Shown here one piece after another: positions 23,913-54,666 of a stretch of DNA of 64,000 nucleotides (the stretch's first letter is position 1; each line of letters opens with the position of its first letter). Made by a program: the position numbers and the translations under genes. Location: positions 1-64,000 of the forward strand of contig MGRG01000008.1 of the NCBI GenBank assembly GCA_001798075.1, written 5' to 3'. The stretch is from Deltaproteobacteria bacterium RIFCSPHIGHO2_01_FULL_43_49. Lineage in GTDB: Bacteria > UBA10199 > SPLOWO2-01-44-7. The notes below the pieces were generated by a model, which made no database searches, was not told the origin of the DNA, and saw only the letters and a program-made list of their open reading frames with translations.

Positions 23913-23914
23913 TT

Positions 23915-26829: not shown

Positions 26830-27929
26830 TCGAGAAAAATCAGCTCACGCTTGTTATTCCGACAAGATATAGAATACAATATCCCAAATTAGTTTTATCC
26901 TATTATGCGGAAATACAATTTCCCTATACAATTTTAATGATTGATTCCAATGAAGACAAAACCCATATACAGAGACTGACAGAATCTTTTAAAAATGGCC
27001 TGCATCTTCATTATCTTTCGCTGCCGGGGTTAACAACGGATCAGTCGATCAAAGTGGCTCTGGACCATATTCAAACTCCTTATGCCATGATGGTGGGTGA
27101 CGATGATTTGGTCATTTCGCAGGGAATTCGAACCTGTCTTGATTTCTTATCCAAAAATAAAGATTATAGTGCAGCTGCCGGGGAAACAATATGGGCTAAA
27201 CTGATCAGGAGAGGATCAAGGATTGTATTGGACCCTCAGAGAATAGATCGAGGAGAGATGAGTAAAAACATTGAGCAAAAAAGAGCTAGTGATCGATTGA
27301 TTGGTTTTTTTAAGTCGGTGGGCCAGTGTACATTTTCTGTTCAAAGAAGTGAGAATTTTAAGAAAAATTATACTCTGGTGGGATCTATTGATTTTGAAGC
27401 TTGCCCACACACATGGCCGTTATCCGAGCTCAGCTTGCAAGGTCTAACCGCAATCAGGGGAAAGATCAAAAGATTGGAAGGTATTTCTTTGGTAATGATT
27501 AGAGACTATGTGCTTGAAAGGGCGTTGAACACTGTGCGGATGATCCCCGTAACGGAAAGTATTACTCATCCGGAGTGGAGTCCGAAAGTACAACAAATGA
27601 TTCAGCTTTGGTCGGAGGAAATGTCATTTTATGAAAAAATGGATATGATGGAAGCTATGCAAAAGGGAAGAATTGCGGTCTATGTGTGGCTTCTTTATCG
27701 CTTGAAGATGTATTCCTTTGCCATCGACAGTAAAAATGGAAAACAGGTTTTGTGGCGATTGTTGAAAAAAGGGATACAAAACAGGCTCGAAAAAAGAAAA
27801 AAGTTACCTTTGGATCTTCGCCACATGGCTGCTGAGAACAATAAACGTTATGCGGGATTTAAAACATGTTATCAGAAACTACAGCAATTTTGTGAATGGT
27901 ATACGCCGAGTCTGTCGGAAATCATCTAA
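26826..27929 (+). CDS. glycosyltransferase (TIGR00180-like)
   Basis: A 367-aa GT-A-like protein with the N-terminal nucleotide-sugar-binding pattern LTLVIPTRYR, MIDSNED and an intact D92-D-D94 metal motif in VGDDDLVI. The pattern TPYAMMVGDDD...CLDFLSKNKDYSAA closely follows the gene at 23915. It probably transfers a sugar during assembly of the repeat unit on the cytoplasmic face. The C-terminal 150 residues are basic and helical. Confidence 0.7.
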   Translation: MIEKNQLTLVIPTRYRIQYPKLVLSYYAEIQFPYTILMIDSNEDKTHIQRLTESFKNGLHLHYLSLPGLTTDQSIKVALDHIQTPYAMMVGDDDLVISQGIRTCLDFLSKNKDYSAAAGETIWAKLIRRGSRIVLDPQRIDRGEMSKNIEQKRASDRLIGFFKSVGQCTFSVQRSENFKKNYTLVGSIDFEACPHTWPLSELSLQGLTAIRGKIKRLEGISLVMIRDYVLERALNTVRMIPVTESITHPEWSPKVQQMIQLWSEEMSFYEKMDMMEAMQKGRIAVYVWLLYRLKMYSFAIDSKNGKQVLWRLLKKGIQNRLEKRKKLPLDLRHMAAENNKRYAGFKTCYQKLQQFCEWYTPSLSEII

Positions 27930-27969: not shown

Positions 27970-29328
27970 ATGGGAGAGGGAATACGGAAAAGTAAGAAGT
28001 TAATGTTAGCTTCTTTTATGCCTCAGAATTTTAAAGAAGCTTTCTTGCCGATGCTGGGTGAGTTGGCTCAAGATTTTCGCATCATTGTTACCTGCGTTAA
28101 TTATTGCCCACCTTCAGGATTTATAAGTTATTTAAATGACTTAAAAAAAAGTGGACTCATTGAAGAATTCTTGATCCTTCCTGATTATGCGAAAACATAT
28201 AAAAGTATTTGTTTCCTTCAAAATGAGGTTCGAAAATTACAACAATATCGATTTGATGTATGGCTCAATATGGGAGAAATGCATCTCGACGAAAGGTTTA
28301 TTGCGAAGTGTGTGTTGCCGGAATCTTGTCTCCGCATTGTTTTATGTCATCAGCCAACTTTTTTACTAAAAAATGAAGCCTTGGTTAGGCAATTGTTGTC
28401 TGGCGATCGCGATATTTTGTCCATTAGGAACACAATAAAAAATATTACCAGTACTAACAGTATTGGTAATGTGTGGCCTCATTATATAAAAAAGATTAAA
28501 GAAGCAGGTTCTATTTTCAAAATCGTTGAAAAATCTTCTAAACATCTTTTTTCTTATCTAAGAAAACTTTATTATGATTTAAAGGATAATATCTATTATC
28601 GGGTACTTGTATCCTATTTTATTACGGGAAAAACGTTTCGCAAAGGTCCTTATGATGATTTAACGCAGATTGGTTCTGGTCAGACACATGCCATTGTTTT
28701 TTGTGATGTGATGGATGCCAAAGCTCACAAAGCGCTTTTTAAAACTCCGGATTTCTATGTTGCACAGCACCCGGCTTATGGATTCTGCCGTTGCAAGAAT
28801 GGCAACCAAAAACTCAATGCCATTTTGTCACCCCTCAGTGGATTTATTGGAATGAATGTAATTTCTGAAGAATGTCTATCTTTATTCTATCGTGATTTTA
28901 AGATTGCGATGGACCAAACAGGAGCAAAAAGCATTCATTTGAGAATGCATCCCAACGAAAGAGGAAGATGGTACCAGGCATTGCAGAATTATTTGTCTGC
29001 AAGAGGTATGGATGTTGTCATTGTGGATTGTGAAAGACCGATTCATGGCGTAATTTGTGATTACCTGGGAATGGCTGGATCTTCCTCTTGTGCTTTAAGA
29101 GACGGTCGCGCCGGCTGCCAACACGCATTTATAATTGGATTTGAAAGTGTTTCTAATTTTTCTGGTACTAATTCAAGATTTCGTTTTGGCAATTCTGAGG
29201 GAATTGGATGGATTCGAGGAGATGGAAGTTATGATCCGTCTATTTTTAAAGGAGATTTCTATCATCCATCGTTTAGAAAGAGAGTTCCCGTTTTATTGAA
29301 AGAATTGGCGGGGTGTTTTTCATCATGA
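27970..29328 (+). CDS. unnamed protein with HP and SS motifs; candidate nonulosonate transferase (1)
   Basis: I do not recognise a named family. The roughly 450-aa protein has two alpha/beta halves, as in GT-B enzymes. Its C-terminal half carries IHLRMHP (HP at 327-328) and GMAGSSSCA (SSS 371-373), arranged like the HP and SS motifs of bacterial sialyl- and polysialyltransferases. A clear D/E-D/E-G motif is not seen. It shares these motifs and an N-terminal FLPxxxEL...IEEF pattern with the gene at 42206. It lies directly before neuB by ATGA overlap. The start is uncertain: ATG 27970 is taken, with ATG 28003 as an alternative. A 12-bp hairpin with one G-U pair lies inside the gene at 28444-28470, without a T tract. 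Confidence 0.5.
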   Translation: MGEGIRKSKKLMLASFMPQNFKEAFLPMLGELAQDFRIIVTCVNYCPPSGFISYLNDLKKSGLIEEFLILPDYAKTYKSICFLQNEVRKLQQYRFDVWLNMGEMHLDERFIAKCVLPESCLRIVLCHQPTFLLKNEALVRQLLSGDRDILSIRNTIKNITSTNSIGNVWPHYIKKIKEAGSIFKIVEKSSKHLFSYLRKLYYDLKDNIYYRVLVSYFITGKTFRKGPYDDLTQIGSGQTHAIVFCDVMDAKAHKALFKTPDFYVAQHPAYGFCRCKNGNQKLNAILSPLSGFIGMNVISEECLSLFYRDFKIAMDQTGAKSIHLRMHPNERGRWYQALQNYLSARGMDVVIVDCERPIHGVICDYLGMAGSSSCALRDGRAGCQHAFIIGFESVSNFSGTNSRFRFGNSEGIGWIRGDGSYDPSIFKGDFYHPSFRKRVPVLLKELAGCFSS

Positions 29329-30320
29329 AGATCAAGATTGAAGAAAAAGTCATTGGCGGAAATGCGCCGGTATTTGTAATTGCCGAGGCGGCCAATAGTC
29401 ACGAGGGATCATTGGAGGCGGCTAAAAAACTGGTGCGTGCGGCAGCGACTGCCGGAGCGGATGCAGTGAAGTTTCAAAAGTTTGTCGTGGAAGAGCTGTT
29501 GATTTCCACTCATCCTGATTTTGAACTTTTCAAACGCTTGGAGTTAAAGGCAAACGAATGGAAGGAATTATTCGCATATGCGGATGAGCTAGGAATCATT
29601 GCTTTTGCGGATGTATTTGATCTTTCCAGCGCCGCTTTTATGGCATCTCTCAATGTACCTGCTTACAAGATTCACTCCACCGATTTGTCCAATCCTGATT
29701 TATTGAAGTATGTTGCCGCTCAGGAAAAACCGATATTTTTGGGGATTGGGGCGAGTTATGTGGAGGAAATGGAACAGGCCCTTTCCTTTTTACATGAGGA
29801 TGTTGTCTTGATTCATGGCTTTCAGGCCTACCCCACCCGCCTGGAAGAGACGAACTTGAAGTTTTTGTGGACATTGCGGGAACGTTTTCATCGTCCGATC
29901 GGTTTTATGGATCATATTGACGCGAATGAAGAATTTGCCAATCTGCTCCCATTGGTGGCGCTAGGATTCGGTATCTGCCTCATTGAGAAACATATTACCT
30001 TGGATAGAAGCAAAAAGGGAATTGATCATGAATCGGCCTTGAATCCGGATGAGTTCAAAAGATTTGTTTTGCAGATCAGAAAAGCGGAGCTAGCCATGGG
30101 TTCCGGAAAAAACACTTTTTTTGAAGACGAAGAAAAATATCGATTAAAAACGAAAAAGAATGTTGTAGCTAAACGCAATATCAAGGCCGGAGAGGTTGTC
30201 ACTCGCGATATGCTTGCCTTCAAAAGGGCGCTGGGAGGAGTTTCCCCGATGAAGGCCGAGCAGTTGATCGGTCAAGTTATTTCTAAATCGATGAAGAAAG
30301 ATGAGATTTTTGTCAAATGA
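29325..30320 (+). CDS. neuB-like: NeuB-family nonulosonic acid synthase (1)
   Basis: A 331-aa PEP-dependent synthase that condenses PEP with an amino-sugar-type aldose to give a 9- or 8-carbon 2-keto-3-deoxy acid. An N-terminal TIM barrel (IAEAANSHEG, AVKFQKF, YKIHSTDL, GFMDH, EKHITLD) is followed by a C-terminal SAF/antifreeze-like domain (VVAKRNIKAGEVV). The PEP lysines of KFQ and YKI are present. SHEG replaces the usual NHNG, so the sugar may differ from sialic-acid precursors. Next to it is an SpsF-type cytidylyltransferase, as in spsE-spsF of Bacillus. ATG 29325 overlaps the upstream stop. Confidence 0.85.
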   Translation: MKIKIEEKVIGGNAPVFVIAEAANSHEGSLEAAKKLVRAAATAGADAVKFQKFVVEELLISTHPDFELFKRLELKANEWKELFAYADELGIIAFADVFDLSSAAFMASLNVPAYKIHSTDLSNPDLLKYVAAQEKPIFLGIGASYVEEMEQALSFLHEDVVLIHGFQAYPTRLEETNLKFLWTLRERFHRPIGFMDHIDANEEFANLLPLVALGFGICLIEKHITLDRSKKGIDHESALNPDEFKRFVLQIRKAELAMGSGKNTFFEDEEKYRLKTKKNVVAKRNIKAGEVVTRDMLAFKRALGGVSPMKAEQLIGQVISKSMKKDEIFVK

Positions 30321-31105
30321 AAATAATTGTTACTATCGCTGTCCGTATGAAATCGGCCCGACTCCCAAACAAGGCCGTAGTGGAAATTTGCGGAAAGCCA
30401 TTAATTTCTCACCTCATTGAACGAGTTCGGTGTGCCAAAAAACCGGATGCAGTTGTTTTGTGCACCTCCCATCTACCCGAAGACGCCGTTTTGATTCAAG
30501 AGGCACTCAAATCCGGGATTCCTTTTCTAGCCGGGAGTCCCGAAGATGTTTTTCAGAGGTTTATGGATGCGGCGACCCAGTATAACGCCGATCATGTTGT
30601 CCGCGTAACAGGGGATAATCCGTTGACAGATCCCGAATATATCGACCGACTGGTTCAGAAGCATCTTGCGGAGAACAATGAATATACCATGGTTGACTAT
30701 CTCCCCTTGGGTGCTGCTTCGGAAGTGATTTCCATTAAGGCTATTGCAAGGGCCAGGGATGAGCTAAAAGATCGGTCACAAAGCGAGTATATGCCCCTTT
30801 ACCTCAACAAGCCTAAAAAGTACAAAGTGGGAGTGTTTACGGCGGATGATTCTGTGAACCGACCACATTATCGACTTACGGTCGATACGCCGAGCGATTT
30901 GGAATTGATACGAATTATTTACAAAGAATTGTATCGCCCAGGGAAAATTTTTTCATTAGAGGAAACGGTTGCTTTTCTGGATGCCAATTTGGAATTGCTC
31001 GATATCAATAATCAAATAGAACAGAAATACGCCTTCCTTTGGAAGGGAATATCTTGCAACAAAGGAAAGGGTGTTAAAAATAATGAAATCAAACACACAA
31101 AATAA
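30317..31105 (+). CDS. spsF-like: SpsF-type CMP-sugar cytidylyltransferase
   Basis: A 262-aa nucleotidyltransferase with VRMKSARLPNKA (CTP loop), LCTSHLPED and VRVTGDNPLTDP, the pattern of SpsF/KdsB-like cytidylyltransferases. It would activate the 2-keto acid made by the adjacent NeuB (ATGA overlap) to the CMP form. The C-terminal about 25 residues are basic and may be non-conserved. The next gene begins inside its end. Confidence 0.8.
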   Translation: MKIIVTIAVRMKSARLPNKAVVEICGKPLISHLIERVRCAKKPDAVVLCTSHLPEDAVLIQEALKSGIPFLAGSPEDVFQRFMDAATQYNADHVVRVTGDNPLTDPEYIDRLVQKHLAENNEYTMVDYLPLGAASEVISIKAIARARDELKDRSQSEYMPLYLNKPKKYKVGVFTADDSVNRPHYRLTVDTPSDLELIRIIYKELYRPGKIFSLEETVAFLDANLELLDINNQIEQKYAFLWKGISCNKGKGVKNNEIKHTK

Positions 31106-32441
31106 GGATCATCCCTTGATCAGAAAAATAAAGTTGTCTTTACAATTTCAACAAAAAGCGATCTGGTGCATACCTGGAATGACACAATTATTATCAAAAA
31201 GGCCTGATCAGTTTAGCAATGGCATCTGGCCGGGTTATTTTAGCAAAGCCAAGGGAGCTTATATTTGGGATCTCGATGGGAATCGATACCTTGACATGAG
31301 TATCTCCGGCATTGGCGCCAATGTTTTGGGTTACGCCGATGAGGATGTGGATAGAGCTGTTATCCATGCCATCCGACAGGGGGTTAGTTGTTCATTGAAT
31401 TGTCCTGAAGAAGTAGAATTAGCCGAGCTCCTCTGTGAGCTTCATCCTTGGGCTGAGAAGGTCCGTTTTACAAGGAGTGGAGGGGAATCGTTGGCGCTGG
31501 CTGTTAGAATTGCCAGGGCTTACACGGGAAGGGATATTGTCGCTTTTTGCGGCTACCATGGATGGCATGATTGGTATCTTTCGGCCAACATTAGTGACGG
31601 TAAAAATTTAAATGAACATTTGATTCCCGGGATAAGTCCGAAAGGAGTGCCTCACAGCTTAAAAGGAACGGCCCTTCCCTTTCGCTATAATCATTTGGAT
31701 GAGCTGAAAACTATTTTTGAAGAGCACCGGGGTCAAGTTGGTGCCGTTGTCATGGAGCCTATCCGAAATTATGAACCTAAAAATAATTTTCTTGGGGAGG
31801 TAAAAAATCTTGCAAGAAAAAATGGTGCTGTTCTTGTGATGGATGAGGTTTCTGCAGGATTTCGGATCGCTCCAGGGGGTGCTCATTTAAATTATAATAT
31901 CCAACCAGATATCGCCGTTTTTGCAAAAGCCATCGGTAATGGCTATCCCATTGGAGCGATCATTGGTGTTGGAAATATTATGGATGCCGTCCAAAGCACG
32001 TTTATCAGTAGCACAAATTGGACGGAGAGGGTGGGTCCATCTGCGGCCTTAGCGACCATACGCAAATTTAAAAATTTGAATGCTCATCATCATTTAGTCG
32101 AAATTGGGTCGATGGTTCAGGCGGGTTGGCGCAGGGCAGCTGAGCGAACTGGTTTAAAAATCGATGTCAGTGGCATTGCCCCGTTAAGTCGATTTATCTT
32201 TCAAGGAAATGATTATTTATCAAAGAAAGCGTTCTTTATTCAGTTTATGCTGGAAAGAGAGATTCTTGCTTCGAACCTCTTTTACGCGATGTATGCACAT
32301 ACAGAAGAACAGGTTGCAAATTATCTTACTGTTGTTGAAGAAGCGTTTGACCAAATAGCCAAAATAGAAAAAGAGGGAGTAGACTTTAATCGGGTATTAG
32401 TGGGAGAGCCATCGGTGGCGGGTTTTGGACGGTTAATTTGA
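31083..32441 (+). CDS. class III aminotransferase / aminomutase (GSAM-like)
   Basis: A 452-aa PLP enzyme of the glutamate-1-semialdehyde-aminomutase branch: YIWDLDGNRYLDMS, TRSGGESLALAVRIAR, YHGWHDWY, LVMDEVSAGFR and the PLP lysine K282 in AKAIGNGYPIG. Enzymes of this branch in NulO loci probably install or move an amino group on the sugar or its substituent. ATG 31083 is chosen with GGAAAGGG upstream; a GTG at 31071 is possible. It overlaps the cytidylyltransferase gene by 23 nt. Confidence 0.8.
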   Translation: MKSNTQNKDHPLIRKIKLSLQFQQKAIWCIPGMTQLLSKRPDQFSNGIWPGYFSKAKGAYIWDLDGNRYLDMSISGIGANVLGYADEDVDRAVIHAIRQGVSCSLNCPEEVELAELLCELHPWAEKVRFTRSGGESLALAVRIARAYTGRDIVAFCGYHGWHDWYLSANISDGKNLNEHLIPGISPKGVPHSLKGTALPFRYNHLDELKTIFEEHRGQVGAVVMEPIRNYEPKNNFLGEVKNLARKNGAVLVMDEVSAGFRIAPGGAHLNYNIQPDIAVFAKAIGNGYPIGAIIGVGNIMDAVQSTFISSTNWTERVGPSAALATIRKFKNLNAHHHLVEIGSMVQAGWRRAAERTGLKIDVSGIAPLSRFIFQGNDYLSKKAFFIQFMLEREILASNLFYAMYAHTEEQVANYLTVVEEAFDQIAKIEKEGVDFNRVLVGEPSVAGFGRLI

Positions 32442-32443
32442 AG

Positions 32444-33118
32444 ATGAATATGAACGATCAAAGAGAAATATTTAAAACAGAAGGGGACAATTATTTTTGT
32501 CGCAACAAAGAAACACTAGAAAAAGCACAGAATAATGACGTCGTGGAATATTTGAAATGGTCGGGATTAAAGGTTGGCAGAATCTTAGATGTGGGTTGTT
32601 GTTTTGGACATGTTTTACATTTAATCAAATCTACCTTTCCTGATACAGAACTCTTCGGTTTTGACCCCTCGTGGGAAGCGATAGGATATGGCAAAAAAAT
32701 GTATCCGGACCTTCATTTGCGTCAAGGTTTTGCCCACGATTTGAGTCATTATGAAGATGGAAGTTTTGATTTAGTCGTGATTAGCTTTGTTTTGAGTTGG
32801 ATTGATCGAGCGCTGTTACTTAAGACGGTTGCAGAAATAGACAGAGTTCTGAAGAATAATGGTCATTTAATTATCAGAGATTTTGCACCTAGCGGCCCTT
32901 GTAAAGTCGAATATCATCATTTACCTGGCCAGGGAGTTTATACATTCAAGCACAATTATTGGCAAATATTTTCCTCCACTCAACTTTACACGATCATTTA
33001 TGAACATGAATTTCTGCATGCCCCTGGGGATGAGTTAAAAAATGAGAATGTTTGTAAATTTGTTGTTTTACAAAAGCGGCCGGAATTAAATTATTCTATT
33101 AACAAAAAGGAACTTTAA
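32444..33118 (+). CDS. class I SAM-dependent methyltransferase
   Basis: A 224-aa Rossmann methyltransferase with motif I LDVGCCFGHVLHL, FGFDPS at the end of strand 2 and FDLVVISFVLSWI as motif II. It is likely to O- or N-methylate a sugar or acyl group made in this module. ATG 32444 is taken; ATG 32450 is also possible. Confidence 0.75.
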   Translation: MNMNDQREIFKTEGDNYFCRNKETLEKAQNNDVVEYLKWSGLKVGRILDVGCCFGHVLHLIKSTFPDTELFGFDPSWEAIGYGKKMYPDLHLRQGFAHDLSHYEDGSFDLVVISFVLSWIDRALLLKTVAEIDRVLKNNGHLIIRDFAPSGPCKVEYHHLPGQGVYTFKHNYWQIFSSTQLYTIIYEHEFLHAPGDELKNENVCKFVVLQKRPELNYSINKKEL

Positions 33119-33121
33119 TTT

Positions 33122-33874
33122 ATGAAGTTGGCAGTTATTCCTGCTCGAGGTGGAAGTCAGAGGATCAAAAATAAGAATTTTTTGGATTTTTGCGGTAAAC
33201 CAATGATTGCGTATGCCCTGGAAGCAGCAAAAAAATCGCGGTTATTCGATAAAATTCACGTGTCTACAGAATCCGTGCATATTCAATCTCTTGTTGAGGA
33301 ATTGGAATATCCAGTGGATTTTCTTAGGCCACCAGAACTTGCGGATAATTTTACTGGCTTAATTCCTGTTCTGCAATGGGTTTTGAAGCAATATCATAAT
33401 AGGGGTTTAGAGTATGAAGATGTTTGTTGCATTATGCCAACGGCCCCCTTGTTAGAACCGCAAGATTTAATTCGTGCCTATGATGTTTTTAGTCAAAATG
33501 AAAAACAACATCCCTTACTGGTTGTCGCTAAGTTGCCCGTTCCCGTAGAATGGGTATTTCGTAGAGATGAGAGAGGAGTGCTGACATCTCTAACGCCGGA
33601 AGCTCTTTCCTCCCGCTCTCAAGATTTGAAAAAAGCTTTTTACGAAGCGGGACCCTTCTCTTTTTTTCATGCCTCTCATTTGTCAGATCATTATGAATCT
33701 CCAAAGGAACCTCGATTTCTTTCTTATCTCCTGACGCGAAATAGAGCCGTTGATATTGACGATGCGGACGACTTGCTTTTAGCCAAAACTCTTTATCTGG
33801 GAAACCAGGCTCAAAAAAAAGATATTTCAGTTGAAGAAAGGAGAATGGATTATGAAAAACATCAAAATAGGTAA
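33122..33874 (+). CDS. pseF-like: CMP-nonulosonate synthetase, PseF/NeuA-like
   Basis: A 250-aa cytidylyltransferase: VIPARGGSQRIKNKN (CTP-binding loop), GKPMIAYALEAA, STES, MPTAPLLEPQDL, FYEAGPF and the metal motif DIDDADD. The MPTAPxL and GKPMIAYxxEAA forms resemble PseF (pseudaminate). It would make the CMP-linked form of the product of the following NeuB, which it overlaps by 23 nt. Confidence 0.8.
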   Translation: MKLAVIPARGGSQRIKNKNFLDFCGKPMIAYALEAAKKSRLFDKIHVSTESVHIQSLVEELEYPVDFLRPPELADNFTGLIPVLQWVLKQYHNRGLEYEDVCCIMPTAPLLEPQDLIRAYDVFSQNEKQHPLLVVAKLPVPVEWVFRRDERGVLTSLTPEALSSRSQDLKKAFYEAGPFSFFHASHLSDHYESPKEPRFLSYLLTRNRAVDIDDADDLLLAKTLYLGNQAQKKDISVEERRMDYEKHQNR

Positions 33875-34913
33875 TAAAATAATTGGAGAAGGCCATCCCT
33901 GTTTTGTATTAATGGATGCCGGAGTCAATCACAACAATGATCTGAAGCGGGCAAAGGATTTGATCCGCATGGCGAAGGAGAGTGGCGCGGATATGATTAA
34001 ATTCCAAACCTATACGGCAGAGAAAATGGCAACCAAAACAGCGCCGCGCTATTGGAATCCAAAACTGGATACGGATGGCGGCGGAACGCAGTATGATACC
34101 TTTAAGCGCATTGATAAACTTCCGCAAGAGGCCTACATAGAAATGATCGATTATTGCAGAGAACTGAATATTATATTTTGTTCAACGCCCTTTGATCCGG
34201 AAGGAGCTCTATTTTTAAACGAACTCGGAGTTGGGGTTTTCAAAGTAGCTTCAGCCGACTTAACCTACCCACAATTGCTGAAAACAGTGGGCAGAACGGG
34301 CAAGCCAGTTATTTTGTCGACAGGGTTGGCCAGCCTTCGTGAAATTCGTGAGGCCATCCAAACCATTCATAATTGCAATAATGATCAGATTGTACTGCAA
34401 CATTGTATTTTGAGTTACCCCTGTAATTTTGAAGATGCCAATTTAAGAAAGATGCAAAAAATCCAGGAGACGTTTCCAGAAATTCCAGTTGGTTATTCGG
34501 ACCATACCTATGGGATTGTGGCACCATTAGCTGCTGTAGCTTTAGGCGCTCGATCCATAGAAAAACATTACACGGTGGATAAATCGCTTCCCGACAGCCC
34601 TGATCATTCTTTTTCATTAGACCCCAAGGAACTGAAAGAGATGATGGTTGCCATACGTAATGTGGAAAAGTCTCTAGGGACTTTTGTGGATGGTCCTTGT
34701 CCGGCTGAGACCAAAGCATTTCAGTTTGCCAGAAAAAGTTTAGTGGCTGCCCAAAGAATTGTGAAGGGTACGGTTGTTACTTTAGACATGCTGACTTGCA
34801 AGCGTCCCGGGACAGGCATTTATCCTAGAGAGATGGAATCGATCGTTGGTTTGAAAGCAAAGCAAGATATTCCGGAGGATACAACTTTAACTTGGGAGAT
34901 GTTTGATCGATGA
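33852..34913 (+). CDS. neuB-like: NeuB-family nonulosonic acid synthase (2), PseI/LegI-like
   Basis: A 353-aa synthase with a TIM barrel (MDAGVNHNNDL, MIKFQTY, FKVASADL, GYSDHT, IEKHYTVDK) and a C-terminal SAF domain (SLVAAQRIVKGTVV, KRPGTGIYP). The lysines that bind PEP and both metal histidines are in place. The first Glu of the usual IAEIG loop reads Asp (LMDAG). It pairs with the PseF-like gene upstream, and PseG and PseB-like genes follow, so a pseudaminic-type product is likely. ATG 33852 has GGAG upstream. Confidence 0.85.
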   Translation: MKNIKIGNKIIGEGHPCFVLMDAGVNHNNDLKRAKDLIRMAKESGADMIKFQTYTAEKMATKTAPRYWNPKLDTDGGGTQYDTFKRIDKLPQEAYIEMIDYCRELNIIFCSTPFDPEGALFLNELGVGVFKVASADLTYPQLLKTVGRTGKPVILSTGLASLREIREAIQTIHNCNNDQIVLQHCILSYPCNFEDANLRKMQKIQETFPEIPVGYSDHTYGIVAPLAAVALGARSIEKHYTVDKSLPDSPDHSFSLDPKELKEMMVAIRNVEKSLGTFVDGPCPAETKAFQFARKSLVAAQRIVKGTVVTLDMLTCKRPGTGIYPREMESIVGLKAKQDIPEDTTLTWEMFDR

Positions 34914-35671
34914 GAACTATTGCGGAATTGATGAATCTTCGGGATCGAAAGGCCCTCGTTGTTGGCGGTGCAGGTGGTGTGGGGTCTGCTGTATGCGAAA
35001 CCTTGCAAGAAATGGGTGCCGTTGTGGGTATTTTGGATCTTAAGGGAGGGAAAACCGGGTTGTCATTTATTTGTGATCTCAAGAATGAAGAGGCAACCGG
35101 TGAGGCGACGGAAAAAGCCATCTCCGAGATGGGGGGGGTGGATATTTTAGTTCATTGTGCGGCCTACGTTGGTGAAACAAAGGTTCCGGGCTGGTCAGTC
35201 CCTTTTGAGAATCAAACAACAACGGCCTGGAATGATGCCGTAACGGTCAATTTAACTTCTGCTTTTGTCTTGGCCAGGACTTGTTGGAAATCGCTTGAAA
35301 AATCTGGGAACGGTTCTATCATTCTGTTTTCATCGATTTATGGAATGGTGGCCCCCAATTTTGGTTTGTATGAGGGGACATCCATGATTAATCCGGCTGC
35401 TTATAATGCTTCCAAGGGGGGTCTTTTGCAGTTGATGCGGTATCTGGCGACTCTTTTTGCTCCAAAGATTCGCGTGAATGCGATCTCTCCAGGCGGCATT
35501 GTGCGAAACTATCCCGAAGCTTTTACAAAGAGATACGAGGCAAAAACACCCTTAGGACGTTTAGCAGTCGATGAGGATTTAAAAGGGGCCGTTGCTTATC
35601 TTGCAAGTGATTTATCAGAGTATGTGACTGGCCATAATCTCATTATCGATGGTGGTTGGACAACCTGGTAA
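34910..35671 (+). CDS. short-chain dehydrogenase/reductase (NulO-associated)
   Basis: A 253-aa classical SDR. The glycine motif is VGGAGGVG, catalytic Ser142 and Tyr165/Lys169 (AAYNASKGG) are intact, and the C-terminus reads GHNLIIDGGW. Its unusual insert with FENQTTTAWNDA and LYEGTSMINP is shared with the SDR at 56892, so the two are paralogues in two NulO modules. A role in changing the sugar precursor (as PtmA is proposed to do in Campylobacter) is likely; the substrate is unknown. Confidence 0.75.
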   Translation: MRTIAELMNLRDRKALVVGGAGGVGSAVCETLQEMGAVVGILDLKGGKTGLSFICDLKNEEATGEATEKAISEMGGVDILVHCAAYVGETKVPGWSVPFENQTTTAWNDAVTVNLTSAFVLARTCWKSLEKSGNGSIILFSSIYGMVAPNFGLYEGTSMINPAAYNASKGGLLQLMRYLATLFAPKIRVNAISPGGIVRNYPEAFTKRYEAKTPLGRLAVDEDLKGAVAYLASDLSEYVTGHNLIIDGGWTTW

Positions 35672-35686
35672 AAAGAGGGGGAAAAA

Positions 35687-36715
35687 ATGAAGAAAGTGAA
35701 AATAGGTAACCGAATTGTTGGAGAAGATGCCCCACCCTTTTTTTCAATCGAAGAGGGGCAAGCCAATTGGGGTCATTTTAAGACAGCCCTCAAAATGGTT
35801 GATCTTGCAGCAGAGGCGGGGGCGGATGGCATTGATTTTCAATTAGCCCGGGCAGATGATTTTTATATTAAAAATCATCCAGAGTATGAGTCCTATCGTC
35901 AGCGGGAATTTTCTGATGATCAACTACGAACTTTGGTTGCTTATATCCGACAGAGTGGGCTAGAAATGATTGTCACTCCCCTTAGTCATCGAGTGATACA
36001 GCCACTGGCCGAAGCCGGCTGCTCCGCTTTTAATGTGAATGCCTCTGATCTAACCAATCCGGATATCATTGATGCCGTTGTAGAAACCGGTCTCTCTTTC
36101 TTTCTGAGCTTACCTTTAGCTGTGGAAGAGGAGATAGATTGGGCAGTCAATCGTGTCCTGAAAAAAGGCGCAAAAAGATTCATTTTGATGCATGGACAAC
36201 ATACGATGGCCAGCGGGGAAAATGGGGTGAAGGTTAGGGATACGGCTTTGGGATATATCTCGATCCTAAAAGAGAAATATGATGTGTTAGTTGGTTTTAT
36301 TGACCACACACCATTACAATGGATGCCGGCCTGTGCGACTGCAGCCGGCGCGGATGTGATTAGTAAACACCTGACCTGGTCACGGGAAGTCAAGGGACCC
36401 GATTGGCATATATGTTTAGAACCAGGTGAAATGAAGGAAGCGATTCAATGGGTTAAACAAATCAATCGGAGTATGAAAATCAGAGAGAAATGTCTTGCCC
36501 CTGGTGAAGATCATGACCGTTCGCTGATGCGGCGAAGCATTGTTGCCGCGAGAAAAGTTTTAGAAGGGCAAAAAATTAAGCGAGAAGACATTTGTTTTAA
36601 AAGGCCAGGAGATGGATTCGATCCTTCTCGTTACGAAGAAATTGTTGGAAAGGCATCTATTCGTAATATTTCACCCGACGAAAAAATAGATTTGTCTGAT
36701 GTGAAAGATCAATAA
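35687..36715 (+). CDS. divergent NeuB-like protein lacking PEP-binding lysines (3)
   Basis: A 342-aa NeuB/SAF architecture (TIM barrel; then SIVAARKVLEGQ, KRPGDGFDP). The two metal histidines (H207 in DHT, H228 in KHLTW) and Glu22 are kept. Both lysines that contact PEP in classical NeuB are changed: AVKFQ reads GIDFQ (Asp50) and fKvxS reads FNVNAS (Asn116); NHNG reads ANWG. It probably no longer condenses PEP in the normal way and may bind a different ligand, or act with the NeuB at 33852. A strong GAGGGGG Shine-Dalgarno precedes ATG 35687. Confidence 0.75.
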   Translation: MKKVKIGNRIVGEDAPPFFSIEEGQANWGHFKTALKMVDLAAEAGADGIDFQLARADDFYIKNHPEYESYRQREFSDDQLRTLVAYIRQSGLEMIVTPLSHRVIQPLAEAGCSAFNVNASDLTNPDIIDAVVETGLSFFLSLPLAVEEEIDWAVNRVLKKGAKRFILMHGQHTMASGENGVKVRDTALGYISILKEKYDVLVGFIDHTPLQWMPACATAAGADVISKHLTWSREVKGPDWHICLEPGEMKEAIQWVKQINRSMKIREKCLAPGEDHDRSLMRRSIVAARKVLEGQKIKREDICFKRPGDGFDPSRYEEIVGKASIRNISPDEKIDLSDVKDQ

Positions 36716-36718
36716 TCC

Positions 36719-37510
36719 GTGGATTTTAAATTAAGAGACAAAATTGCAATTGTGGGAGGCTCTAGCAGGGGTTTAGGTAAGGCGTGCGCTTTACAATTAG
36801 CCAAAGAAGGTGTCTCTGTAGTTTTGTGTGCGAGAAACAAAGAGAACCTAGTCAAAACGGCAGATTCTATTAGAAATGAAACCACCTCAAGTATATTTCC
36901 TATTCAAGCGGATTTATCAAAAAAAGAAGATGTAGAAAATGTGGTTGATAAGACTCTAAAAGAGTTTGGGAGAATAGATATTTTGATTAATAATTCTGGA
37001 GGCCCTCCCGCCGGTACTTTTTTTGATTTTTCTGAGAGGCAATGGACACAGGCCTACGAATCGATTCTTCTCTATGTTGTTCGAGCTATCCAATTAGTTA
37101 TCCCTCACATGAAAAAAAATCAATGGGGGCGGATCATCAATATTACCTCCTTGCTTGTTAAAGAACCGTCGGAAAGTTTAATTTTGTCCAGTGTTTTTCG
37201 GGCGGGTGTGGTCAGTTTGGCAAAGTGTATTTCAAGTGATCTCATTAAATACAATATCACCATCAATAATATCTGCCCGGGGGCGTTTATGACCGAAAGA
37301 GCGATGGAGTTGATCAATGGCCAAGCCATCAAATTACAGCGCTCTGCGGCAGCCATTGAAAAGGAAAATGTTTTGAAACTTCCTTTGGGAAGATATCAAG
37401 ATCCGCAGGAATTGGGAGATTTGGTGACCTTTCTTTGCTCCGAAAAAGCTAGAGGGATATCGGGGACAACAATCCCCATTGACGGTGCTCTATCACGTTC
37501 ACTCCTTTGA
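36719..37510 (+). CDS. short-chain dehydrogenase-like protein (LxxS..R subtype)
   Basis: A 263-aa SDR fold with GGSSRGLGKA, NNSGGPPAG and NICPGAF. The catalytic region reads ITSLLVKEPSESLILSSVFRAG, so the YxxxK pair is replaced by a form seen in one known SDR subgroup (LxxSxxxRA). It may therefore not act as an ordinary alcohol dehydrogenase. It begins with GTG 36719, three bases after the upstream TAA, and ends in a TTGA overlap with pseG. Confidence 0.7.
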   Translation: MDFKLRDKIAIVGGSSRGLGKACALQLAKEGVSVVLCARNKENLVKTADSIRNETTSSIFPIQADLSKKEDVENVVDKTLKEFGRIDILINNSGGPPAGTFFDFSERQWTQAYESILLYVVRAIQLVIPHMKKNQWGRIINITSLLVKEPSESLILSSVFRAGVVSLAKCISSDLIKYNITINNICPGAFMTERAMELINGQAIKLQRSAAAIEKENVLKLPLGRYQDPQELGDLVTFLCSEKARGISGTTIPIDGALSRSLL

Positions 37511-38595
37511 ATAAAAATAAATTGAAATTCGTTTTTCGGGTTAATGGCAATAAAGAGATTGGGATGGGGCATCTCATGCGTTGTCTTTATCTTGCAGAAT
37601 ATTTGCAAGGCCCTTCCCTTTTTTTAATCAACGGCAATGGTGCGGTAGTGGAAAAGGTGAAAGCGTTTGGGCATGACTATCGTGTTATTTCTTCCCTCAC
37701 CCCCAAAGATTTTGAGGTGATGATTCAAACGCTGGAGAGTTATCCCAATCGATCTGAAAAGATTCAACCTTCTGAAGCAGAGGAAATCCAAGAGATGAAA
37801 AAATGGCTTTGCGATGTGAAGAACCTTATCCTCATTACCGATTTGCTTTCTCCTTCGGATCATTATCTTAGATCGCTCAAAGCTATAGGGCATTTTTTAG
37901 TTTCTATTGATGAGATGGGACAGGTCCTTTTCCCATCCAATCTCGTGTTTAATTGTAACGCAGTTTCACATGCTAAAAAGTACAAAACTGCCAAGACAAC
38001 CAAAATTTATATGGGGAAACAGTTTGCTCTTCTAAAGGATGAATTCCTCAATGGTGCAGGACTAAATATAAAAGAGAAGGTCAAAAAAATTCTTGTAACG
38101 TGTGGTGGGACCGACATGAAGGGTTTGAGTATTAAGGTATTAAAAGCTTTAAAAAACTTTGCTAAGGAAATTGAAGTGGTTCTTATCAAAGGGTTTGACT
38201 TCAAATTTGAGACAGAACTGAATTCTCTTTTGCGGGAGATAAAACCGATTCAGGTTTTGAAAAACGTTCAAAATATGCGTGAACAGATGCTTTCCGCTGA
38301 TATCGCGTTTGCCTCAGGTGGTACCACCATGTATGAATTGGCGGCATTGGGGGTTCCAAGTATTATTTTAGACCAATATGAACATCAAAATGAGTTTGCT
38401 AGTGAGATGGAGCGAGAGGGCGCATTACTCAACTTAGGGCTTGGTGTAAACGCTGATTCCAAGAGGATTGAGAATGCCGTCTTTGGGCTTTTACCGTTCA
38501 AAAAGCGAAAAGAGATGTCTCTTGCCGCAAAAAAAGCAATCGATGGCCGAGGAGCATCGCGAGTGGCACAAATTATTCAGGAGCATGTTACATGA
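37507..38595 (+). CDS. pseG: PseG-like UDP-sugar hydrolase
   Basis: A 362-aa GT-B-fold hydrolase related to MurG that removes UDP from UDP-2,4-diacetamido-2,4,6-trideoxy-L-altrose in the pseudaminate pathway. It shows FRVNGNKEIGMGH with catalytic-type His22, VTCGGTDMKG, ASGGTTMYELAALGVP and a QYEHQ motif typical of PseG. The start is TTG 37507, overlapping the upstream TGA; no earlier ATG exists in frame and the next Met lies inside GMGH. Confidence 0.8.
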   Translation: MNKNKLKFVFRVNGNKEIGMGHLMRCLYLAEYLQGPSLFLINGNGAVVEKVKAFGHDYRVISSLTPKDFEVMIQTLESYPNRSEKIQPSEAEEIQEMKKWLCDVKNLILITDLLSPSDHYLRSLKAIGHFLVSIDEMGQVLFPSNLVFNCNAVSHAKKYKTAKTTKIYMGKQFALLKDEFLNGAGLNIKEKVKKILVTCGGTDMKGLSIKVLKALKNFAKEIEVVLIKGFDFKFETELNSLLREIKPIQVLKNVQNMREQMLSADIAFASGGTTMYELAALGVPSIILDQYEHQNEFASEMEREGALLNLGLGVNADSKRIENAVFGLLPFKKRKEMSLAAKKAIDGRGASRVAQIIQEHVT

Positions 38596-39452
38596 GTGTT
38601 GTCTTTGTCGGTACGGTTGAGTTTTCACGTTTTGCATTGAGGGGATTGCTCGATGCCCGAGCCCCTCTCTCAGCCATCTTTACACTCGACACTTCTTTAC
38701 AAGGGCCCGTTTCTGACTTTGCTATTTTCGACAATCTTCTTAAAGGAACCCGTATCCCTCTCTTTCAAGTTTGTAATCTTCATTCGACAGAAGTGGTTCA
38801 GACTTTAAGAGAGATCCAACCCGATTTTATTTATGTCATCGGTTGGTCTAGAATTGTGCATCGAGAAATATTGGAAACGGCAAAAAGAGGAGGAATCGGT
38901 TTGCATCCAACGTTGTTGCCGGAAGGGCGCGGGAGAGCTCCTATCCCATGGACAATTCTAAAGGGGCTTCGAAAAAGCGGTGTTTCTCTCTTTCATTTAT
39001 CCGAGGCACCCGATGCGGGAGATATTATTAGTCAAGTTTCTTATGATATTGCCCCGGAGGAAACGGCGACCACTCTCTACCAAAAGGTTTGTGAAACTAC
39101 TTATCGTTTGGTCAAAGAAACCTACCCTTTGTTGGCGGGAGGAAAGGCACTTCGCCTGAAGCAAGATGAATCGAGAGCGACACATTGGGTTAAAAGAACG
39201 CCGCAAGATGGGTTGATTGATTGGAGAAAATCGTCCCACGAGATTGAAACATTGGTTCGCGCCGTTACCCATCCTTATCCAGGGGCTTTTAGTTATTTAA
39301 GGGGAAAGAAAGTTTTGGTTTGGAAGGCAAGGAGGATTGAGACTCAAAATAAGGCGGTTGCCGGCACAATCTTGTCTGATAATGGAGAGGGGATGATTGT
39401 TAAAACAGGAGATGGGGCCTTGCTTTTAGAATCGATACAAGAGACGACTTAA
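38592..39452 (+). CDS. sugar N-formyltransferase-like protein (Fmt fold)
   Basis: A 286-aa protein of the methionyl-tRNA/sugar formyltransferase family. The catalytic loop reads GLHPTLLPEGRGRAP with His105, and EAPDAGDII supplies the Asp. The usual Asn two before His (NxH) is Gly here (G103-L-H). A C-terminal Fmt-like domain follows (AVTHPYPGAFSY). It would add a formyl (or related) group to an amino sugar using formyl-THF. The PIG-L deacetylase at 40478 could free the amine first. Confidence 0.7.
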   Translation: MSVVFVGTVEFSRFALRGLLDARAPLSAIFTLDTSLQGPVSDFAIFDNLLKGTRIPLFQVCNLHSTEVVQTLREIQPDFIYVIGWSRIVHREILETAKRGGIGLHPTLLPEGRGRAPIPWTILKGLRKSGVSLFHLSEAPDAGDIISQVSYDIAPEETATTLYQKVCETTYRLVKETYPLLAGGKALRLKQDESRATHWVKRTPQDGLIDWRKSSHEIETLVRAVTHPYPGAFSYLRGKKVLVWKARRIETQNKAVAGTILSDNGEGMIVKTGDGALLLESIQETT

Positions 39453-39455
39453 ATC

Positions 39456-40481
39456 ATGAATCGAGTAAAAGAGATCGTAGAAAAGGTAGCTCAAGAAGCC
39501 AAAAAATCTGGAAAGATTTCAATCTTCAGCATTGCCAATACGGCCAATAAAAATAATCCACCGCTTTTGTTTCCAGCTATTCGCGAGACCGATTCAACAA
39601 TTGCTGGAAATATTCTTGTAACCTCTGAAGAACAAATAAAACAGGTGATCGAAATAGTGGATGGTTTAGTAGATATCATTCTCATGGATACGGAGAGGAA
39701 GACCCCTGCATTCCAAGATGTGGAAAGAATTTTCCGTGAGCAAGTTCACAAAAGTCGACTGTTGACATTCAAGCCGAATGATTTGACAGTAGAGGCTCTG
39801 GATGCCTTTTTAGTTCAGATTGCCTCCCCTCTCTCAGGAAAAAAGGTGGCTGTGATTGGTGCCGGTAATATTGGAAGTAAAATAGCTCTGAAGCTGGTTG
39901 AACGGAATATTTCTGTGATCTTGACCCGACGTAATAAGGAGGTTCTCCAAAAAATTGTGACTGGCATTAATGCCATCAAACCTATTGCTGTCCAGGCAAA
40001 AGTGGAATGCACAACAGATGGTTTGGAGGCATGCCGAGGAGCCAATATCATTATTGGAGCTGCAAATGGTGTAGCTGTTGTAACAAATGAAATGGTTATG
40101 GTTATGAATGCCTCCGGTTGGATCATCGATGTGGGCAATGGAACTCTTTCGCCAGAGGCAGTTCAGGAGGCAGATAAGCGGGGTATTTCTGTTTTGTGTC
40201 TTTTTGTAAAGCCAGCTTATGACGGAGCCATCAAAACTATTTTAGAAACAGAACAACTGATTCAAAAAATTGCGCGGCGTTCCTTGGGCCATTTTTCCAT
40301 TCTCTCTGGAGGGGTTTTAGGAAAAAAAGGAGACGTAATCGTAGATGATGCTTATTGCCCCAGACGAATTTTAGCTATTGCCGACGGACGAGGGGATGTT
40401 TTGCCAGACATTCGAGATCCCTCTTTTCGAAAAAATATTGAAGAAGTGGAGTCAATCATTCAAAAAGGAAATCCACAATGA
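39456..40481 (+). CDS. Rossmann-fold oxidoreductase of unknown specificity
   Basis: A 341-aa protein with an N-terminal domain of about 125 residues and a central NAD(P)-binding domain (VAVIGAGNIGSKIALKL near residue 130), as in shikimate/glutamyl-tRNA/ornithine-cyclodeaminase-type dehydrogenases. GANIIIGAANG and IIDVGNGTLSP follow the order of such enzymes. It has no FolD signature despite lying beside a formyltransferase. The substrate is unknown; it lies 3 nt after the formyltransferase gene and overlaps the PIG-L gene. Confidence 0.55.
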   Translation: MNRVKEIVEKVAQEAKKSGKISIFSIANTANKNNPPLLFPAIRETDSTIAGNILVTSEEQIKQVIEIVDGLVDIILMDTERKTPAFQDVERIFREQVHKSRLLTFKPNDLTVEALDAFLVQIASPLSGKKVAVIGAGNIGSKIALKLVERNISVILTRRNKEVLQKIVTGINAIKPIAVQAKVECTTDGLEACRGANIIIGAANGVAVVTNEMVMVMNASGWIIDVGNGTLSPEAVQEADKRGISVLCLFVKPAYDGAIKTILETEQLIQKIARRSLGHFSILSGGVLGKKGDVIVDDAYCPRRILAIADGRGDVLPDIRDPSFRKNIEEVESIIQKGNPQ

Positions 40482-41170
40482 AAAAAGTACTGGTCATCGG
40501 AGCTCATCCCGACGATGAAATTTTAGGTGTGGGAGGAACCATCGCCAAACATGCTGCCCAAGGAGATGAGGTTTATGCCTGCCTTCTTTGTGAACATGTC
40601 ACTGCGCGCAAGAACAAGCCGGAACATTCCCGTTTTTTGGAGCAGGTTCACGCGGCAAAAAACATTGTAGGAATTCGCGAAATTCTATTTTATGATTTTC
40701 CAAACATTGCAATGCACACCGTACCTATTCTAAAGGTAGTGCAAGCAATCGAGGAGGCCATTGTTCGTTTTAAGCCGGAAGTTGTTTACACACATCATCA
40801 TGGCGATGTGAATGACGATCACCAAGTTGTATTTCGCGCAACGATGGCAGCCATTCGGCTTCCGGAACGAGGAAATATCCCCGGTCTTCCGCGCAATATG
40901 ATCCAAGGAGTTTTGTGTTATGAGACACCATCTTCTACTGAATGGGCCCCTCCGCTTTATGGTAATGCGTTTCTTCCCAACATCTACGTAAACATCCGTG
41001 ATTTTTTGGACAAAAAACTATCAGCACTGGAGTGTTATGAAAATGTAATGAAACCCTATCCCCACCCCCGGTCGGTCGAGGCCATAAAGGCAAAGGCGAA
41101 AAGCACAGGAGTGCAAGCTGGTTTAGAGGCAGCGGAGGCCTTTATGTTAATCAGAGGATTACACCTATGA
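40478..41170 (+). CDS. PIG-L/LmbE-family N-deacetylase
   Basis: A 230-aa zinc deacetylase: VIGAHPDDEILGVGG with ligands H10 and D13 and the second ligand cluster HHHGDVNDDH. Such enzymes remove N-acetyl (or other acyl) groups from sugars. Beside a formyltransferase it may exchange acetyl for formyl on a nonulosonate precursor. It is coupled to both neighbours by ATGA overlaps. Confidence 0.8.
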   Translation: MKKVLVIGAHPDDEILGVGGTIAKHAAQGDEVYACLLCEHVTARKNKPEHSRFLEQVHAAKNIVGIREILFYDFPNIAMHTVPILKVVQAIEEAIVRFKPEVVYTHHHGDVNDDHQVVFRATMAAIRLPERGNIPGLPRNMIQGVLCYETPSSTEWAPPLYGNAFLPNIYVNIRDFLDKKLSALECYENVMKPYPHPRSVEAIKAKAKSTGVQAGLEAAEAFMLIRGLHL

Positions 41171-42219
41171 ATATGAAAGAAATGTTTCACAATAAAAAGA
41201 TATTGATAACAGGAGGGACCGGTTCTATTGGTAGAGAAATTGTAAAACAATTGCTCGAATTTCATCCGGCACAGATACGTATTTTTAGTCGAGACGATAC
41301 AAAGCAGTTTGAATTAGAACACGAGTTGCGGAGTCCAGAAAATGTGCGATTTTTAATTGGGGATGTTCGGGATTTAAATCGATTAAAAATGGCGATGGAA
41401 GATATTAATTTTGTTTTACATGCGGCGGCTCTTAAGCATGTTTCAGCCTGTGAGTACAACCCGTTTGAAGTTGTAAAGACAAATGTAGACGGAACACAGA
41501 ATGTGATTGAAGCTGCGTTGGAAAAAAATGTAGAGCGTGTTATCAATATTAGTACAGATAAGGCAATCAATCCTACGAATACCCTGGGTGCGAGTAAATT
41601 GTTGGCTGAAAGGATTGTCGCCGCTGCCCATTCTTTTCGTGGATTTCGCAGAACGATTTTTGCTTCTGTCCGTTTTGGCAATGTTTTGGGGTCGCGCGGA
41701 TCGGTAACGGAGCTTTTTAAGCGCCAGATTATAAAAAGGTGTCCGGTGACGATTACCCATCCCGATATGACAAGATTTATCATGTCAGTTCCGCAAGCTG
41801 TTCATCTTGCTTTAAAAGCGCTTTGTATGACCCAAGGTAGAGAAGTTTTTATTTTAAAAATGCCGGTTGCAAGGATTTCGGATTTGGCGGAGGCGGTGAT
41901 GGAAGAGCTGGCTCCTATTTATGGTTTCAAAAGAGAAGAAATTGAGATGAAAACAATTGGTAAAAAGGCTGGCGAAAAAGTACATGAAGAGCTGATGACG
42001 TTGGAGGAATCAGAAGCGGCCTTGGAAACAGAGGAGATGTTTATTGTTTTGCCTGAAAGCACTCAAGTTATTGGTGTGAATGATCTAGAAGATAGAGTCT
42101 ATCTCGGGGCCAGGCCAGCTGAAAAACGAGAATACCATTCTAAAATGGAAAAACCAATTGTAAAGGAACAAATCAAGATTCTTTTAAGAGAAACAGGCGT
42201 ACTCCATGCAACCGTCTAA
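41167..42219 (+). CDS. pseB-like: PseB/CapD-like UDP-GlcNAc 4,6-dehydratase
   Basis: A 350-aa soluble SDR of the polysaccharide-biosynthesis (CapD/PseB/WbjB) family: ITGGTGSIG (14-22), ALKHVSACEYNPFE, STDKAINPTN and LGASKLLAER. The position of Tyr/Met before xxxK is Leu (TLGASK), close to the Met form of FlaA1/CapD members. Short length and lack of membrane helices match PseB rather than WbpM. It would start the pseudaminate-type branch with PseG (37507). The expected PseC aminotransferase is not adjacent. Confidence 0.75.
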   Translation: MNMKEMFHNKKILITGGTGSIGREIVKQLLEFHPAQIRIFSRDDTKQFELEHELRSPENVRFLIGDVRDLNRLKMAMEDINFVLHAAALKHVSACEYNPFEVVKTNVDGTQNVIEAALEKNVERVINISTDKAINPTNTLGASKLLAERIVAAAHSFRGFRRTIFASVRFGNVLGSRGSVTELFKRQIIKRCPVTITHPDMTRFIMSVPQAVHLALKALCMTQGREVFILKMPVARISDLAEAVMEELAPIYGFKREEIEMKTIGKKAGEKVHEELMTLEESEAALETEEMFIVLPESTQVIGVNDLEDRVYLGARPAEKREYHSKMEKPIVKEQIKILLRETGVLHATV

Positions 42220-43462
42220 CCAAGGCGTATTATTTTTCTGTGGCGTTGGCTATGCACTCAGTGAAGTATTTTTGCCAGTGATTGACGAACTTAAAGGCTT
42301 GTGTCGTATATATATGTTGGTTGCCGATTTTTGTCTCAGTCCATTGATGAGAGAAAAATTAGTTGAAATGAAGGAGAATAAGATCATTGAGGAATTTTGG
42401 ATCTTTTCAGCTTTTCCCAATCAAGAATCGCGCAGAACATATCACCGCCGTATAAGCTCCTCTGTGCAATGCTTGAGAGGACTTTCCATTCGATTACTTG
42501 TTTTAGGTGAGGACAGCCAAATTGTAAGCCGTTATATTTTTAGTCAATTTTCGGATTTGCCAATTAAAAGGGTTATCTTGCAAACGGGCGTCATCGGGCA
42601 TGTTTTAAATGCTTATCGGATGAAAAAAGCACTCACTGTGGATCGCGAGCGAAAAAACGGCCGAATCAGTTGGTTGGCTAGGAAGTTACTATTCAATTTT
42701 CGAGATTGGCAGAACTGCTGTTTTTTTCCCTACTGGTATCAAAAAAAAACATTCCCTGTGACTGGGTATGAACGTCTTACCTTTGCTTCAGGTTTATGCA
42801 AACATGTCATTTGTTATGATCCTTTAGAAGCTAAGGCCATCCAGACAACCAATCCTCTTGTGAAATATATTTATCTTGCCCGTTTTCCTTTGGAAGCGAA
42901 AAAGTCGGAGAGCCAGGTACAGGTAAATGAGTGGAAAAAAGCAGGCAAGCTATTAGTCAGCCCTTCAGGGAAATTGTTTGAAGAAATGCCCCGCTCGAAA
43001 ATCGACCGTTGGGTAGAAGTAACACGCCAGGTAGTTCAGTTAAAAAATATTCGCGAAATTCACTTGCGGTTTCACCCTCGCCTCTCCCCAGCACTCGAGT
43101 GGCCCAAAAAGATAGCTAGGGCTATGGAAAAACTGGGATGTTCGGTGGAAATTGTTAACTCAAGCAAGGTTTCTCTATACGAAAGTGTTCACTTGTATGA
43201 TGGAATGATCGGTTCACCCTCTGGTTCTTTACGTGTCACCAGAGCTTTAAATAAATCGATGTTTATTTTGGGGCTTCCGAATTGCTGTGATGGAGATTTC
43301 AATGATCAACCATGGCTTTTGGGTGAAGGAGAGGGAATTCAGTGGGCCAGAGAAGGGGAGTCGGTCCGCATCGAACAATTAGAACCACCCCCAGTTATAG
43401 ATTATCAACGTCCACGTGTTTCCAGTATTTTATTAGATTTTTTACAGGGTTCTCAATCATGA
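42206..43462 (+). CDS. unnamed protein with HP and SS motifs; candidate nonulosonate transferase (2)
   Basis: A 418-aa protein with no family I recognise. Its C-terminal half holds IHLRFHP (HP 290-291) and GMIGSPSGSLR (S337, S339), matching IHLRMHP and GMAGSSSCALR of the gene at 27970 in order and spacing. N-terminal FLPVIDELKGLCRI and IIEEFWIF also match. The pattern recalls the HP and S-S/T motifs of bacterial sialyl/polysialyltransferases. It directly follows the pseudaminate-type genes. A basic stretch (140-190) may bind membrane. A transferase role is inferred. Confidence 0.5.
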   Translation: MQPSNQGVLFFCGVGYALSEVFLPVIDELKGLCRIYMLVADFCLSPLMREKLVEMKENKIIEEFWIFSAFPNQESRRTYHRRISSSVQCLRGLSIRLLVLGEDSQIVSRYIFSQFSDLPIKRVILQTGVIGHVLNAYRMKKALTVDRERKNGRISWLARKLLFNFRDWQNCCFFPYWYQKKTFPVTGYERLTFASGLCKHVICYDPLEAKAIQTTNPLVKYIYLARFPLEAKKSESQVQVNEWKKAGKLLVSPSGKLFEEMPRSKIDRWVEVTRQVVQLKNIREIHLRFHPRLSPALEWPKKIARAMEKLGCSVEIVNSSKVSLYESVHLYDGMIGSPSGSLRVTRALNKSMFILGLPNCCDGDFNDQPWLLGEGEGIQWAREGESVRIEQLEPPPVIDYQRPRVSSILLDFLQGSQS

Positions 43463-54664: not shown

Positions 54665-54666
54665 AA

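Follow-up and report, generated by a model that had tools for sequence, protein, structure and literature searches.

Two distantly related proteins of a deltaproteobacterial glycan locus, candidates for a new family of CMP-ulosonate transferases

Which proteins transfer the nonulosonate-type sugars whose genes are found along a 64,000-nucleotide stretch of Deltaproteobacteria bacterium RIFCSPHIGHO2_01_FULL_43_49 (contig MGRG01000008.1, positions 1 to 64,000; this whole stretch is called the window below)? A preliminary description of this DNA had pointed to two unnamed proteins, here P0001 and P0002, as paralogues and as candidates for a new nonulosonate transferase family. Both open reading frames (ORFs) are confirmed where it had placed them:

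27970..29328, + strand: P0001, candidate CMP-ulosonate transferase, 452 residues (ORF, BLASTP, structure model)
42206..43462, + strand: P0002, candidate transferase, 418 residues, divergent paralogue (ORF, BLASTP, structure model)

The fold, the nucleotide-binding residues and the gene neighbours agree, and for this reason P0001 and P0002 look like a new family of transferases for sugars activated with cytidine monophosphate (CMP). It is likely that these two candidates are GT-B glycosyltransferases using a CMP-activated 2-keto-3-deoxy acid (nonulosonate-type) donor. Taken separately, the P0001-type candidates are probably CMP-ulosonate transferases; P0002 is placed much less securely and is the weaker case, for which we propose the same function with moderate confidence.

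The relationship between the two proteins is borne out by BLASTP, with 23% identity over 406 columns (E=2e-14): judged from sequence they are true paralogues, distantly related. They are the sole copies in their own 2.23-Mb genome, where each search retrieves only its partner. For P0001 a second in-frame ATG lies further upstream, at 27850. The family comprises 11 members in 8 genomes, i.e. P0001, P0002 and nine relatives from seven other genomes; the sources are metagenome-assembled genomes (MAGs) titled Deltaproteobacteria, Nitrospiraceae and Zetaproteobacteria.

The four motifs noticed at the outset, FLPxxxEL, IEEF, IHLRxHP (H327 in P0001, H290 in P0002) and GMxGSxSxxLR (S373 and S339 respectively), are all present in both proteins. 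The N-terminal ones read 'AFLPMLGEL' and 'LIEEFLIL' in P0001, 'VFLPVIDEL' and 'IIEEFWIF' in P0002. The others are located as follows:

28942..28953, + strand: R325-x-H327-P328 of P0001, (K/R)XHP CMP-pocket motif (match to the published (K/R)XHP)
29068..29100, + strand: GMAGSSSCALR (residues 367-377) of P0001 with the invariant S373, putative phosphate-binding motif (family alignment)
43067..43078, + strand: R288-x-H290-P291 motif of P0002
43202..43234, + strand: GMIGSPSGSLR (residues 333-343) of P0002 with the invariant S339 (family alignment)

R-x-H-P is found in 11/11 family members with an invariant Ser 46-50 residues downstream, and GxxGx(2-3)Sxx[LF]R is likewise common to all 11. The combined pattern [KR]xHP-x(34-48)-GxxGx(2-3)Sxx[LF]R has no other occurrence in the six frames of the window and none in shuffled sequences (0/40,000). 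A Glu precedes the invariant Ser by 13 residues in 10 of the 11 members, P0001 being the exception. In a GT38 structure with bound cytidine diphosphate (CDP), the cytosine is held by K289 and P292, the phosphate by H291 and S339 and the ribose by E323 (PMC5517516). According to a 2026 paper, (K/R)XHP is conserved in the sialyltransferases GT29, 38, 42, 52 and 80 and in the retaining transferases GT99 and 107 for 3-deoxy-D-manno-oct-2-ulosonic acid (Kdo) (PMC12887879). We found KxHP in Escherichia coli NeuS, KpsC and KpsS, and VxHP or AxHP in two NeuC-type epimerases.

The preliminary description had taken HP and S-S/T motifs as marks of a CMP site. We rejected HP plus S-S/T alone as proof of CMP binding: the HP and S motifs by themselves are weak evidence because NeuC-type 2-epimerases also carry HP. 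What stands is the (K/R)XHP form, which matches the published motif; what discriminates from NeuC-type epimerases is a basic residue at H-2, and R is invariant at this position in the family. Similarly one Ser is invariant (11/11) and the second position varies, which reduces S-S/T to this one Ser.

The AlphaFold models of both proteins are two-Rossmann structures (P0001, predicted local distance difference test, pLDDT, 77 and predicted template modelling score, pTM, 0.78; P0002, pLDDT 64 and pTM 0.67). Foldseek searches against 350,542 PDB chains gave the same top matches for both, 5wcn and 5wc6, the GT38 polysialyltransferase (PST) of Mannheimia haemolytica with and without CDP (E 2.3e-7 for 5wcn with P0001; E 1.3e-9 with P0002, whose next match is a 2-epimerase at 3e-7). 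Both proteins are thus predicted to adopt a GT-B fold, and the best match of each is a CMP-sialyltransferase (GT38).

At the sequence level no Pfam-A or NCBIfam model matches P0001 or P0002 at E<=10, and Pfam over the 11 members returned two irrelevant weak matches only. PF07388 (GT38) matches 0/11 members at E<=10 and nothing in the window's own whole genome; the GT52, GT80 and lipooligosaccharide (LOS) sialyltransferase Pfam profiles match neither protein; PDB sequence searches with single proteins or a profile gave no match. None of the hhalign comparisons with E. coli NeuS, NeuE, KpsC, KpsS and NeuC or with the NeuS/MhPST pair came above the MutY control. The family resembles GT38 (M. haemolytica PST 5wcn; E. 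coli K1 NeuS; PF07388) by its top fold match, by [K/R]xHP followed about 48 residues on by a Ser at a helix start, itself preceded by a Glu, and by having NeuB and a CMP-sugar synthetase as neighbours. It differs from GT38 in lacking Pfam or significant profile similarity and D/E-D/E-G, in a longer helical insert between the domains, in a partner that is SpsF-like instead of NeuA, and in a C-terminal EGIxWI motif of its own. P0001 and P0002 belong to no tested named family and form a probable new one within a known enzyme kind.

The neighbours of the two genes in the window are the following:

29325..30320, + strand: NeuB-like synthase ('YKIHS[TE]D' kind), overlaps P0001
30317..31105, + strand: SpsF-like cytidylyltransferase (CTP_transf_3), of the subfamily of the C-terminal half of NeuB fusions
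33122..33874, + strand: PseF-like cytidylyltransferase (match below cut-off)
33831..34913, + strand: NeuB family synthase
35687..36715, + strand: divergent NeuB family synthase, 5.7 kb from P0002
37507..38595, + strand: PseG-like hydrolase (TIGR03590, over cut-off)
41167..42219, + strand: PseB-like 4,6-dehydratase of uridine diphosphate (UDP)-N-acetylglucosamine (GlcNAc) (match below equivalog cut-off)

P0001 lies directly before neuB and P0002 directly after pseudaminate-type genes, as had been reported: the end of P0001 overlaps the ATG of the NeuB-like gene (29325) through an ATGA junction, and P0002 starts 14 bases inside the 3' end of the PseB-like gene. That the window holds no known nonulosonate transferase elsewhere is correct as far as tested, not every window protein having been scanned; the remaining glycosyltransferases that were checked belong to the TIGR00180 type (23882-24982 and 26826-27929) and to GT2 (54661-55446). 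An ABC exporter gene is found at 24985-26829. Further upstream, at 21372-22583, an aldo/keto reductase ORF has a C-terminal segment, ParB-like by eye, that ends 'DLIEGRNRFWAWIIKHGWDKPVPALIRE', a fusion that is unexpected in a sugar locus.

The linkage extends to the relatives. A neuB lies within 8 kb (<=8 kb) of 10/11 members versus 0.26 expected; the 11 members are not all independent in this count, and with one member per genome the figure is 7/8 (P 2e-11). Two relatives have the P0001 orthologue directly upstream of NeuB and an SpsF-like gene, the same as in the window. One SpsF-like cytidylyltransferase subfamily is near 10/10 P0001-type members, and five loci encode it as a fusion with an unusual NeuB. 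Members from the Zetaproteobacteria and Nitrospirota-type genomes stand next to one protein of 586-595 residues that joins NeuB to CTP_transf_3 and is predicted from its domains to combine ulosonate synthesis and activation in one polypeptide. The SpsF-like protein of the window and the fused halves are mutually closer than to NeuA or KdsB. The family-linked NeuBs read YK[IV]HS[TE]D; canonical NeuBs read KIPSGE or KIGSGE. Linkage of the members to genes for NeuB and CMP-sugar synthetases is seen in three deposited taxa. The anticipated neuA/neuB association holds for NeuB, but the place of NeuA as activating partner is mostly taken by an SpsF-like cytidylyltransferase. As a candidate family the proposal is supported: neither of the outcomes named beforehand as speaking against it, a fold other than GT-B and homologues unlinked to neuA/neuB loci, was found.

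Family members occur in 4/146 related genomes (the window's own included), in 3/396 genomes of the phylum of the Nitrospiraceae MAG and in 1/78 genomes of the class of the Zetaproteobacteria MAG, and no relatives were found in the viral contigs or plasmids searched; this patchy spread suggests horizontal transfer. Of the 396 genomes, the three with the transferase, and no others, have close copies of the NeuB::CTP fusion (over 1100 bits; naive P 1e-7); one of the three contains two loci, each holding both fusion and transferase. Three genomes with a remote fusion were checked for hidden family members and none was found.

Several features accompany the fusions. NeuB (PF03102)::CTP_transf_3 fusions of 586-605 residues are encoded at L017:3148-4908, L018:5880-7652, L033:13010-14779, L034:4274-6034, L035:1327-3114 and L047:8797-10614, both domains being confirmed by Pfam in L018 and L047. 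The NeuB fusion is followed by a protein of 641-643 residues in four loci (L018:7682-9607, L017:5063-6994, L033:11052-12980, L035:3133-5064); the L018 copy, weakly asparagine synthetase-like, might amidate the sugar, and the others share its length and N-terminus. The window itself has four NeuB paralogues (29325-30320, 33831-34913, 35687-36715, 61615-62649) with differing KI(H/A/G)S sites; that at 35687-36715 reads NVNASDL, and its divergence equals that of the NeuB fusions. Adjoining formyltransferase and Rossmann dehydrogenase-like genes (window 38592-39452 and 39456-40481) are fused into one ORF of 644 residues in G005 (L015:15816-17750), and homologues of the dehydrogenase-like protein, 36-38% identical, stand beside NeuB fusions in other phyla (L017:2029-3087; L035:241-1323). 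This pair hints at an N-formylated sugar.

Could the two proteins be GT-B transferases for a sugar of UDP or guanosine diphosphate (GDP), or 2-epimerase-like enzymes, that just happen to lie in a glycan locus rich in nonulosonate genes? In both fold searches plant UDP-glycosyltransferases and UDP-GlcNAc 2-epimerases do come close behind GT38, the loci are extensive glycan clusters rich in sugar genes, and the L016/L020 member is without nearby NeuB. This is nevertheless unlikely, as GT38 ranks first for both proteins, R at H-2 is invariant compared with V/A in NeuC-type epimerases, and the family co-occurs exactly with the NeuB::CTP fusion in 396 genomes. Neither an Epimerase_2 nor a GT1 Pfam match is found; PF02350 (Epimerase_2) misses P0001 and P0002 but detects the window's own epimerase at 57614 (4e-78).

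The CMP motif (K/R)XHP is common to retaining Kdo transferases as well, the curated models best matching the SpsF-like partner are KdsB-type, and WaaA is match 11 in the P0001 fold search. P0001 and P0002 might then transfer the eight-carbon Kdo from CMP-Kdo, as retaining enzymes of the GT99/GT107/GT140 type (WbbB, KpsC, KrkA), and not a nonulosonate. We consider this quite unlikely. The QXXXD nucleophile motif that these enzymes require upstream of HP is missing in 10/11 members, L035 alone having a non-conserved QADAD (a chance match); the linked synthase is a NeuB (PF03102); no KpsC- or WbbB-type structure is among the top 50 matches listed in either fold search.

Near 2/3 remote fusions lies a large protein with a weak match to the BFO_1060-glycosyltransferase model (L046:2479-4482, L047:5867-7789), which may be a different transferase acting on the same donor. 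BFO_1060 is named after a Tannerella locus, and we take it to be GtfS or one of the Tannerella nonulosonate transferases. Like our family, the BFO_1060 / Tannerella forsythia GtfS-type transferases (TagB-like) are GT-B-type, have an HP motif and are linked to nonulosonate genes; the BFO_1060 model shows no sequence similarity to P0001/P0002 at E<=10 in NCBIfam. Knock-outs at the Tannerella locus assign nonulosonate transferases (PMC6388019). A link of TagB-type enzymes, which carry HP motifs, to nonulosonate transfer has been described (PMC7439481; PMC6388019), and use of a cytidine nucleotide would explain RxHP, but CDP-alditol (glycerol/ribitol phosphate) transferases related to TagF/TagB are very improbable here: PF04464 matches 0 members at E<=10, none of the ORFs listed for the window stood out as TagD-like (no scan was aimed at TagD), and the linked cytidylyltransferase is of the CTP_transf_3 (SpsF/KdsB) kind.

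Several observations weigh against CMP-ulosonate transfer by P0001 and P0002. The hhalign comparison with GT38 is not significant (P 0.14-0.24; MutY control 0.09), HP being aligned on HP and Ser on Ser in these alignments. D/E-D/E-G, the other sialyltransferase motif, is absent from the family, and P0001 has Gly (G360) where the ribose-type Glu is expected. The superpositions are loose, with template modelling (TM) scores of 0.42-0.54; the P0002 model has a pLDDT of just 64; both models were built on the same seven sequences and are thus not independent. Given these TM scores and the shared alignment, the modelled folds support a GT-B with a CMP-type active site, not GT38 membership. The tree unites the P0001 orthologues from the window's family (99/98) and leaves most remaining forks unresolved; P0002 is a singleton on a very long branch. 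Finally the L016/L020 member has no NeuB within 52 kb; an SpsF-like gene of the family-linked subfamily is 5.7 kb away from it.

For the favoured CMP-ulosonate transferases, the donor, acceptor and stereochemistry that we infer are these. The donor of P0001 would most likely come from the two genes just downstream, the NeuB-like synthase making the sugar and the SpsF-like cytidylyltransferase activating it; the putative acceptor is a growing surface glycan. P0002 would most likely transfer the product of the upstream pseudaminate-type genes, its position beside the PseB-, PseG-, PseF-like and NeuB genes being the sole basis of this assignment. The C-terminal Rossmann domain may hold CMP: R-x-H-P would contact cytosine and phosphate, the invariant Ser at the N-terminus of a helix would bind the phosphate too, and the Glu 13 residues before this Ser would bind ribose. 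The acceptor hydroxyl, held by the N-terminal domain, would attack C2, probably with inversion as in GT38, which we assume because of the GT38-like fold and the missing QXXXD. The only conserved acid of the family comes after strand 4, the GT38 base after strand 5; E103 of P0001 was therefore dropped as equivalent of the GT38 base E153, since it follows strand 4.

Few transferases are available yet for bacterial nonulosonates other than N-acetylneuraminic acid (Neu5Ac), and CMP-ulosonate transferase families have been founded one protein at a time, GT118 in 2024 and GT140 in 2026; the former, of the pseudaminyltransferase KpsS1, is a recently founded nonulosonate transferase family as cited in PMC12887879. 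A bolder and rather doubtful possibility is a new inverting GT-B family for an undescribed ulosonate. A divergent NeuB branch (KIHS[TE]D) would make this sugar and an SpsF-like synthetase would activate it, both activities sharing one enzyme in several phyla; with the transferase they would form a portable make-activate-transfer cassette. The P0001/P0002 family is without Pfam or NCBIfam profile and is tied to a synthase-activator fusion. Each candidate thus comes with a defined donor-making partner, so that in vitro assays can address the question of its donor directly, and the family might serve as a tool for new sialic-acid-like glycans.

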